From: a virus
Length of the DNA: 21,344 nucleotides
Strand: one strand, 5' to 3'
IMG/VR virus record: IMGVR_UViG_3300033553_000276
Span: 1 to 21,344 of that record
Positions 17,090 through 21,135 of this stretch are shown here, piece by piece (the stretch's first letter is position 1; each line of letters begins with the position of its first letter). The position numbers and the translations under genes were made by a program. The notes under the pieces were generated by a model. The model was not told the DNA's origin. It was given only the letters and a program-made list of their open reading frames with translations, and did no database searches.

Positions 17090-18238
17090 GTGGGTAACGC
17101 AGCCACACGTCGAGTGCTGGTCCTGCCCATGGGCCTCCAACACGCAGCCACACGCCGAGTGCTGGTCGAAGCCGTCCCGGAATACCCGATTGTCGAACCG
17201 CGACCCTACCCGTCGATGGTCCGGGAGTTCCCGGCCAACTCCCGCAACTATCCCTGGTTCGGGCAGTTCATCCCGTTGGGCACCACGGAGTTCGTCTATG
17301 CTGCCACCCGTCGGGTGCTGGTGGCCGCCACCTTGCCCCTGACTCCCCCGGCCGGCGCAGCCATCGCCACGGACTTCGGGATTGTTGGGGACGGGACTGA
17401 CGAGAGGGCCGCGATGCAGGCCATGATCAACGCCACCGGAGTTGGGGACGTTCTCTGGTTCCCCGATCCCCCGGTGCGCTACTACTTCGGGCAGGCTCCC
17501 GGACAGAGCTACGGTTTGGCGGGGAGGACCGGGCTGGACATTCGCGGGGTTGGAGACGCAACGTACTTCTACACCCCAGCCACCTACCCGATCCAGTTCT
17601 TCTCCGGGGACAGCGGCATCACGCTCAAGAACTTCAGGCTCCAGGGGACGTACCTCACCAACCAGTACGGAGTCGTCTTTTCCGGGAACGTGTCGCAGGT
17701 CCTGATTGATGGTCTGACGGTTCACGACATGCTCTTTGCCGGTCTTTACTCGTCGGCTGCGCTCACCGAGGCCCTGGTTAAGAACACCACGCTCCACGAC
17801 AACGGCTTCGTCGGCGTCCAGCTGAAAGACGGCAGCGGTCAGGTCCGCTTCGAGGACTGCCTGAGTCACAACTGCATGGACCCCATGTATCCGCCGCACC
17901 CCTACTACATCAGCGGAGCCACCGGCCTGATCGAGTTCATCCGGTGCGAGGGCCACACAGTTGCCTCCCGGCCCAATGGCTACGGCGGGGTGCAGCTCAC
18001 CAACTGCTCGAATGTCTACCTCGAAGACTGCAACATGCACCACAACCGTCCGGTGGGCGCGAACGACGGCTACGGATACATCTTCGACGGGGCGACCAAC
18101 GCCGAACTCGTGCGCTGCATCGGCGCGAAGGACGGCTACACCGGCCCCTGCCTCGACAACTACTACACCTTCTACGAGATCGGCGGTCCGACTGTCACCT
18201 ACGAGGACTGCGTCGGCACCAAACGGGTCTACGGATAG
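17090..18238 (+). CDS. Tailspike-like protein with beta-helix (pectate-lyase-type) domain
   Basis: A 382-residue protein. After an N-terminal part of about 90 residues with three AATRRVLV motifs (residues 4-11, 19-26 and 71-78), the body begins DFGIVGDGTDERAAMQAMIN (about 95-114), the entry motif of pectate-lyase-3 type right-handed beta-helices. It continues with many short N/T/D-rich turns (ITLKNFRLQGTYLTNQYG, VLIDGLTVHDMLF, VYLEDCNMHHNRPVG). Such proteins usually bind or cut host surface polysaccharide. No catalytic residues can be assigned by eye. GTG 17090 starts three bases after the previous stop and lacks a clear ribosome site, so the start is uncertain; ATG 17129 is an alternative. 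Confidence 0.8.
   Translation: MGNAATRRVLVLPMGLQHAATRRVLVEAVPEYPIVEPRPYPSMVREFPANSRNYPWFGQFIPLGTTEFVYAATRRVLVAATLPLTPPAGAAIATDFGIVGDGTDERAAMQAMINATGVGDVLWFPDPPVRYYFGQAPGQSYGLAGRTGLDIRGVGDATYFYTPATYPIQFFSGDSGITLKNFRLQGTYLTNQYGVVFSGNVSQVLIDGLTVHDMLFAGLYSSAALTEALVKNTTLHDNGFVGVQLKDGSGQVRFEDCLSHNCMDPMYPPHPYYISGATGLIEFIRCEGHTVASRPNGYGGVQLTNCSNVYLEDCNMHHNRPVGANDGYGYIFDGATNAELVRCIGAKDGYTGPCLDNYYTFYEIGGPTVTYEDCVGTKRVYG
17097..17323 (+). repeat. Triplicated AATRRVLV-encoding repeat
   Basis: Two 26-base copies at 17097-17122 and 17142-17167 differ at one base and are 45 bases apart. A third, more diverged copy is at 17298-17323. All are in the same frame and encode AATRRVLV. The two near copies look like a recent in-frame duplication. 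Confidence 0.9.
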
Positions 18239-19909: not shown

Positions 19910-20151
19910 TGAGTGATCGACTGCACCCTGTGACGGGCAAGCCTCTGCCGCCCCTACCCGCAACGGTCGAGCTGCCCTGCCGACACCTCTGCGAGCGGAT
20001 CTGGGAGCCCGGGGATCCCCCCATCCTGCCGCCTATCGAGTCAGCGTACTGCAGCCGACCGGTGCAGCTGACCGAGGAGCGTGCGGAGCAGCTGCGGGCA
20101 CAAGGCCGCACTGACGACGTCCGCTGCCTCGAGCATTCGGGGAAGGTCTGA
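19909..20151 (+). CDS. Small hypothetical protein with four cysteines before the endolysin
   Basis: An 80-residue protein: proline-rich start (PVTGKPLPPLPATVELP), cysteines 24, 28, 48 and 73 (CRHLC, YCSR, VRCLEH), and an acidic/polar helix (QLTEERAEQLRAQG). The open frame begins at 19861, but ATG 19909 is preferred because a GAGGAGGAGG ribosome site lies at 19894-19903. Its stop is one base before the endolysin GTG. No family is recognised; the four cysteines could bind zinc. Confidence 0.72.
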   Translation: MSDRLHPVTGKPLPPLPATVELPCRHLCERIWEPGDPPILPPIESAYCSRPVQLTEERAEQLRAQGRTDDVRCLEHSGKV

Positions 20152-20152
20152 C

Positions 20153-21007
20153 GTGGGCACCGCATTCACCGACGAATCCAAACGGCTCTTCCTGGGCCGT
20201 TTTCTTTTGCCCGAGGAGATCGAGCCCTGGATCCGGGCGCAGTCCTTGGGCTCGCTGCCCGCGATCTACGGGGTGACGCATCACACGTGGGCCCCGACCC
20301 CGGCCACCTGGAAGGGTCGCTCGAGCCTCGACGGCATCTTCCGCTACTACCGAGAGAATCTCGGCTGGCCGGCCGGCGTGGGTCCGCACTTCTTCGTCGC
20401 CCCCCGAGAGAGAGGCGGGCCGTGGGGCGTCTGGGTCGGAACCCACCCTCGGCACGACGGGATCCACGTCTCCGGGTGGAACTCCCGCTCGATCGGCATG
20501 GAGTACGTCTGGAACGGCGACCTCGCGCCCTTCACCCCCGAGATGCTCCGAATAGGGACGCTCGTCTGGCAGGCGATTGAGCGGAAGATCGGCCTCCCCA
20601 TTCGCATCAGCTACACCCGCGGCTCGCCCGGCCACTTCATGCACAGGGACAAGAGCCCGAAGAGCTGCCCTGGCAACCGCAACGACCGCGCTGCGATCAT
20701 CGACGCCTACCGAGCAAGCACGCAGACGCAGATTCCCGACTTCCTGGAGGACCTCATGGCTCAGCTCACCGACGAAGAGAGGGACCAGCTGCTCGCCGAC
20801 ATCCACAACACGGCGCTCGCCTCGATGGAACAGACCGAACTCCAGAAGCGAACGGTAAAGAGCGGGCAGGCGCTCAGCTACCGGGTGAACGCGCTCCTGG
20901 CGGGTGTGCTGTCGCTGGTTGAAGAGGAGGGCGAGCTGCCCGAGGTCGTGCGCGCCGAACTCGCCAAGGCGACCGAGGCGGGCTTTACCGTGCCGGGGTC
21001 GGCTTAG
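20153..21007 (+). CDS. Endolysin, N-acetylmuramoyl-L-alanine amidase (Amidase_2)
   Basis: A 284-residue cell-wall amidase that would cut the bond between muramic acid and the stem peptide to release the virions. It has the zinc-site pattern of Amidase_2/T7 lysozyme enzymes: H43-H44 in GVTHHTWAPT, and H164 with C172 in MHRDKSPKSCPG, the eight-residue H-to-C spacing of this family. SGWNSRSIGMEYV (middle) and GPHFFVAP are further core segments. GTG 20153 was selected because GGAAGG (20141-20146) precedes it. The C-terminal 80 residues (MAQLTDEERDQ...) form a helical domain with its own start at 20756. Strong call for the enzyme; the C-terminal role is unknown. Confidence 0.93.
   Translation: MGTAFTDESKRLFLGRFLLPEEIEPWIRAQSLGSLPAIYGVTHHTWAPTPATWKGRSSLDGIFRYYRENLGWPAGVGPHFFVAPRERGGPWGVWVGTHPRHDGIHVSGWNSRSIGMEYVWNGDLAPFTPEMLRIGTLVWQAIERKIGLPIRISYTRGSPGHFMHRDKSPKSCPGNRNDRAAIIDAYRASTQTQIPDFLEDLMAQLTDEERDQLLADIHNTALASMEQTELQKRTVKSGQALSYRVNALLAGVLSLVEEEGELPEVVRAELAKATEAGFTVPGSA
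20756..21007 (+). CDS. Internal in-frame product of the endolysin gene (C-terminal domain only)
   Basis: ATG 20756 is endolysin residue 202 and in frame. It has GGAGG (20746-20750) five bases upstream, a better ribosome site than that of the full gene. It would make an 83-residue protein (MAQLTDEERDQLLADIHN...). Other endolysins, such as the enterococcal amidase Lys170, make separate C-terminal binding subunits from such inner starts. Here this is an inference; no protein data are available. Confidence 0.55.
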   Translation: MAQLTDEERDQLLADIHNTALASMEQTELQKRTVKSGQALSYRVNALLAGVLSLVEEEGELPEVVRAELAKATEAGFTVPGSA

Positions 21008-21135
21008 TGGGTCAGTGTCTCCGCTGGACCCCAGCATCTATGCATGCGGATCGGCGCAACCGGTCGTGCGAGAACTGCGGCCGGAGAGGCCGCACCGAGT
21101 GCCCCGAGACCCCTGACCAAGGAGAACCGACATGA
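21007..21135 (+). CDS. Tiny Cys-rich protein between endolysin and holin
   Basis: GTG 21007 starts on the last base of the endolysin stop (TAGTG). The frame encodes 42 residues with C4, C21-x2-C24 and C32 (SCENCGRRGRTEC), a zinc-knuckle-like arrangement, and ends ATGA overlapping the holin start (21132). A later start at ATG 21040 is also possible. The tight coupling on both sides supports translation. Function unknown. Confidence 0.55.
   Translation: MGQCLRWTPASMHADRRNRSCENCGRRGRTECPETPDQGEPT

Follow-up and report, generated by a model that had tools for sequence, protein, structure and literature searches.

Does the endolysin gene of this phage direct the synthesis of one protein or of two? 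The gene lies at the lysis end of the window, the whole 21,344-nucleotide stretch of DNA analyzed here, which carries a phage structural module with a large terminase and a tape measure and which corresponds to the entire contig C12 (21,344 bases) of a 2.47-Mb genome bin of 49 contigs, referred to below as the host bin. A first-pass annotation had pointed to an in-frame ATG with a near-ideal ribosome site exactly at the border between the amidase and a C-terminal helical domain, and had suggested a lysin composed of one catalytic chain with extra free C-terminal subunits. The GTG at 20153 was taken as the start of the full-length protein, since a single base separates it from the TGA (20149-20151) that ends the preceding gene and since the protein read from this position is conserved in relatives, its N-terminal sequence being shared with L002, L012/L042, and L013 (described below); a longer frame, reaching back to 20081, is also possible. 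Downstream, the start of a gene for a 42-residue protein overlaps the endolysin stop (TAGTG) and its end overlaps the beginning of a putative holin gene; on this basis the lysis cassette looks translationally coupled. The 42-residue protein gave no Pfam match and the putative holin no significant one, and the name of the latter is inferred from its position and hydrophobicity. Elsewhere in the window, a 26-nt direct repeat is present in three copies (17097-17122, 17142-17167, and 17298-17323; 96% and 81% alike). Translated, these copies yield repeats of the motif AATRRVLV toward the N-terminal side of the tail-fibre-like protein at 17090-18238.

Table 1. Features of the endolysin gene and the neighboring lysis genes, in coordinates of the window.
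Feature	Position	Strand	Basis
Endolysin gene, full-length product (FLP), 284 aa	20153..21007	+	Open frame, upstream neighbor, conserved N terminus
Shine-Dalgarno (SD)-like sequence GGGGAAGGT of the main start	20139..20147	+	Sequence
Amidase_2 (PF01510) catalytic domain, residues 39-175	20267..20677	+	Pfam
Internal Shine-Dalgarno GGAGG, 5 nt 5' of the internal ATG	20746..20750	+	Sequence; identical in L002
Internal in-frame start ATG, Met202 of 284 counted from GTG 20153	20756..20758	+	Initiation score 2.9
Predicted C-terminal product (CTP), 83 aa, all-helical orphan domain	20756..21007	+	Open reading frame, structure model
42-aa protein with CxxC...C (zinc-ribbon-like) residues, next cassette gene	21007..21135	+	Sequence; conserved in L002 5855-5983
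Putative holin, hydrophobic, running off the contig end	21132..21344	+	Sequence; L002 5980-6243, 87 aa there

The catalytic domain was identified by a profile match of 33.8 bits against a curated Pfam cut-off of 26 (E 5e-8). Residues H43, H44, H164, and C172, which form the adjacent histidine pair of HHTW, the histidine of HRD, and the cysteine of CPG, fall in columns invariant among five aligned relatives, and we take H43 or H44, H164, and C172 to be the likely zinc ligands (two His, one Cys) of Amidase_2 in this protein. Folding of the whole protein from its single sequence was useless (mean pLDDT 38). Beyond the amidase, the internal GGAGG is separated by the spacer ACCTC from the ATG, which opens a frame of 83 codons (20756-21004; stop 21005-21007), confirming the strong in-frame ribosome site of the first-pass annotation. 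Its placement at the domain border also holds in that the ATG lies between the amidase and the C-terminal part, although "exactly" was slightly generous, as Met202 is 26 residues past the end of the Pfam match (residue 175), in the linker or at the linker end. The gene therefore has the architecture of a two-product endolysin with one catalytic and one C-terminal domain, in which the stretch between the domains holds an internal start and a ribosome site to serve it.

The C-terminal part was predicted to be all helical in a structure model, as had been proposed, with helices at residues 6-58 and 63-74 and a mean pLDDT of 77.6 from an alignment of two near-identical sequences. Searches with the 83-residue domain gave no significant match in Pfam or PHROGs and recognized no known wall-binding family, while 299 genomes of the class returned weak matches alone (E 0.002 and worse), mostly inside long unrelated frames. 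The sole copy returned by a scan of viral contigs was that of L002/L122, at 94% identity. On the basis of this arrangement, ribosomes starting at the GTG would produce the 284-residue amidase with its C-terminal helical domain, and ribosomes entering at the internal GGAGG and ATG would produce the free 83-residue domain, a putative cell-wall-binding or assembly subunit. Judging from the sequence, it is highly probable that the gene makes both products. The free domain would probably be in excess over the full-length chain, because the internal site is the stronger of the two. If Lys170 and LysP7951 are a guide, free subunits would most likely join the C-terminal domain of the full-length chain, so that several wall-binding or scaffold subunits would carry a single catalytic domain. 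A multimer of this kind is plausible by analogy with Lys170, LysIME-EF1, CTP1L, and LysP7951, and we give a hetero-oligomer with extra C-terminal subunits roughly even chances. Taken as a whole, a two-product endolysin whose free C-terminal subunits, made in excess, assemble with the full-length chain is the reading we favor with some confidence, and in adopting it we infer use of the site, excess of the short product, assembly, and wall binding.

The two products may instead form no stable complex, with the free C-terminal protein acting alone, either competing for wall sites or tuning lysis timing, or limiting the re-killing of fresh hosts. The two products of LysJavan488 do not associate and the isoforms of Ms6 LysA affect lysis timing (PMC9430671), and for the present domain no oligomerization signal was obtained, as a test for coiled-coil heptads in the C-terminal part was not significant (p 0.25) and a structural search with its model was uninformative (no match below E 1.9). 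However, the case known not to associate contains two catalytic domains, and the cases with one catalytic and one C-terminal domain associated wherever this was shown. We consider a solitary C-terminal protein rather unlikely.

A second alternative is that the site arose by chance, GGAGG before a methionine being a by-product of coding for an acidic linker at high GC content, while the full-length protein alone is made. The linker sequences LED, QED, and EEE are readily encoded with GGAGG, and a survey of the host bin (239 gene-like frames) found an SD of at least five bases at suitable spacing before 28 of its 1,259 internal ATGs (2.2%), which amounts to about one such ATG per eight genes. 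As an argument against chance this plain count is only moderately impressive, and an initiation-energy score was therefore devised, a simplified measure combining anti-SD pairing, spacing, start codon, and local mRNA folding that is distinct from the published RBS Calculator and in which lower values are better. The internal ATG scored 2.9 compared to 9.2 for the gene's own GTG; it was the best internal start of the endolysin gene and ranked first among the 270 internal starts of the window's genes, with the runner-up at 9.7. The 215 host-bin genes scored in this way contain 4,114 internal start codons, of which only two, in two genes, reached 3.22 and none reached 2.92. Resampling among the gene's own synonymous codons, with the protein sequence unchanged, kept GGAGG in 28% of draws here and in up to 66% in relatives, so the site is partly explicable by the amino acids of the acidic linker. 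For the three independent genes, the observed strength was reached in only 6%, 3.5%, and 11.5% of draws, indicating that codon choice favors initiation beyond the amino acid constraint. Additionally, methionine is not expected in linkers, and six Amidase_2 lysins of Streptomyces phages, with C termini judged by eye to be LysM- or PG-binding-like, had best scores of 12.5-26 at any internal start, which argues that the site is not generic to GC-rich amidase genes.

Further evidence against chance comes from relatives of the gene. A homolog about 93% identical was found on the viral contig L002 (amidase 92%, C-terminal part 94%). Conservation of the GGAGG-ATG among relatives had been proposed as a check, with relatives keeping the domain while losing the site as the refuting outcome; L002, the only other copy of the C-terminal domain found, keeps both, the site lying within a 47-nt run without any difference. 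This identity alone is weak evidence, since elsewhere in the gene identical runs exceed this length three times and equal it once. A second viral contig, L012, carries the same gene as L042 (=L004); the latter genome belongs to the same GTDB family as the window and has a public record labeled Actinomycetes bacterium. In these the amidase is 58-60% identical, the linker is longer and proline-rich, and the C-terminal part has no detectable similarity, and CAGGAGGACCCCATG follows the amidase in frame with AGGAGG as the equivalent of GGAGG. In L044 (=L005) the amidase is 35-36% identical and is joined to yet another, unrelated C terminus, and AGGAGG again takes the place of GGAGG in GAGGAGGAACCCATG, in frame after the amidase. 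With scores of 3.2 (L012/L042) and 0.1 (L044/L005), these are the best internal starts of their genes and better than the respective main starts. An (A)GGAGG-N5-ATG in frame just past the amidase is thus common to this gene, L012/L042, and L044/L005.

The internal site is not universal, as it is absent from L013 (amidase 52% identical over the best segment), which has an unrelated C-terminal extension, and as L043 (34% identical, from a bin labeled Gracilibacteria), whose extension is likewise unrelated, lacks any internal start preceded by an SD. The C terminus of L013 (3529-3792) gave a weak S-layer-homology match below the cut-off (E 0.07), suggesting that some members of this amidase group may be wall-anchored via S-layer-type motifs. 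The many single-domain relatives have no comparable site. A search of the phylum added one phage-type amidase, that of L146 (1426-2322), from another class of the same phylum; it is directly followed by an in-frame SD-like sequence and ATG (PPTGDDD-M) with a weaker score of 10.1, which was not counted as support. Three of the five lineages with extension-bearing homologs (L002, L012/L042, and L044, as against L013 and L043) have the site at the same relative place, a recurrence resting on three independent cases, with two of the phage contigs from one metagenome. A tblastn search of 50,697 phage records gave no match at 1e-5, the weak matches being to enterobacterial phage amidases (records of ~39-41 kb, E 0.03 and worse); scans of viral contigs found no relatives of the L044 protein and, with L012, L012 itself and nothing else. 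At the per-gene rate in the host bin, the odds of three such coincidences are roughly (2/215)^3, or about 1e-5 once the two relatives without the site are allowed for. Chance is therefore an improbable source of the internal start. Still less probable is a fusion relic, in which the C-terminal domain derives from a once independent downstream gene, joined in frame to the amidase, and the ribosome site of that gene is a useless leftover: the C termini of relatives do diverge from about the internal start onward and each opens with its own SD and ATG, but no convincing free-standing homolog of the 83-residue domain was found in the 299 class genomes or the viral contigs, and a leftover should decay, yet the site is the gene's strongest internal start in all three lineages.

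A second, C-terminal product, as originally suggested, is thus well supported, given that the site is strong, suitably placed, and found again in relatives. That the internal start recurs in front of C termini unrelated in sequence is the most interesting part of these results. Preservation of the start next to C-terminal sequences that are no longer recognizably similar would provide independent evolutionary evidence for selection of a free subunit. We tentatively raise the less likely idea that, within this lineage of amidases, the start is a conserved hinge, where C-terminal modules would be exchanged between phages, each bringing or keeping a strong start, and selection would maintain free subunits whatever module is attached. 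On the two-product reading, such endolysins would also occur in phages of a lineage that is uncultured and apparently actinobacterial, and would include one whose helical C-terminal domain is an orphan. In practical terms, if lysins of this type are expressed with the internal start recoded, the enzyme obtained could be incomplete.

Finally, the gene was compared with known two-product endolysins. Internal starts are predicted in about half of the endolysins of Gram-positive phages and also in 15% of portal genes (PMC9430671), so that prediction alone is no proof of use. That endolysins with one catalytic and one C-terminal domain can yield two products is experimentally established, and Pinto et al. 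(PMC9430671) divide the proven cases into two groups according to whether the short product retains a catalytic domain or consists of the C-terminal domain alone. The latter group includes Lys170, LysIME-EF1, CTP1L, CD27L, CS74L, LysLW32, and LysP7951, with reported hetero-oligomers of 1:3, 2:2, and 1:5 (PMC9430671), and the anatomy predicted for the present gene is that of this group. LysA of mycobacteriophages Ms6 and Pollywog also combines Amidase_2 with an internal start in actinobacterial phage lysins, but its start lies between two catalytic domains and the short product is still an enzyme, unlike the one predicted here. In the clostridial phage endolysins CTP1L, CD27L, and CS74L, the secondary translation product is the wall-binding domain alone, to which the predicted CTP may be likened; a 2:2 assembly has been proposed, a crystal structure of CTP1L exists (PMC4777826), and their C-terminal domains have no recognized relation to the present one. 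LysP7951 of Streptococcus thermophilus phage P7951 likewise has its internal start between the catalytic and C-terminal domains and a short CTP (10.8 kDa with tag), similar in size to the 83-residue product predicted here, but its catalytic domain is GH25 instead of Amidase_2, and its 1:5 stoichiometry was determined by native MS. Lys170 of Enterococcus phage F170/08 and LysIME-EF1 similarly have one catalytic and one C-terminal domain with an in-frame start between them and a C-terminal product without the catalytic domain (PMC9430671), as predicted here; they differ in having a demonstrated 1:3 hetero-tetramer, in their host, which belongs to a different phylum, and in that the present C-terminal domain matches no known family. 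The first-pass remark that no such case was known for this kind of amidase C terminus is accordingly true of the domain and not of the architecture, which is that of an established group. We conclude that the gene very probably encodes a two-product endolysin like Lys170, CTP1L, and LysP7951, in which an already known architecture is combined with an orphan C-terminal domain.
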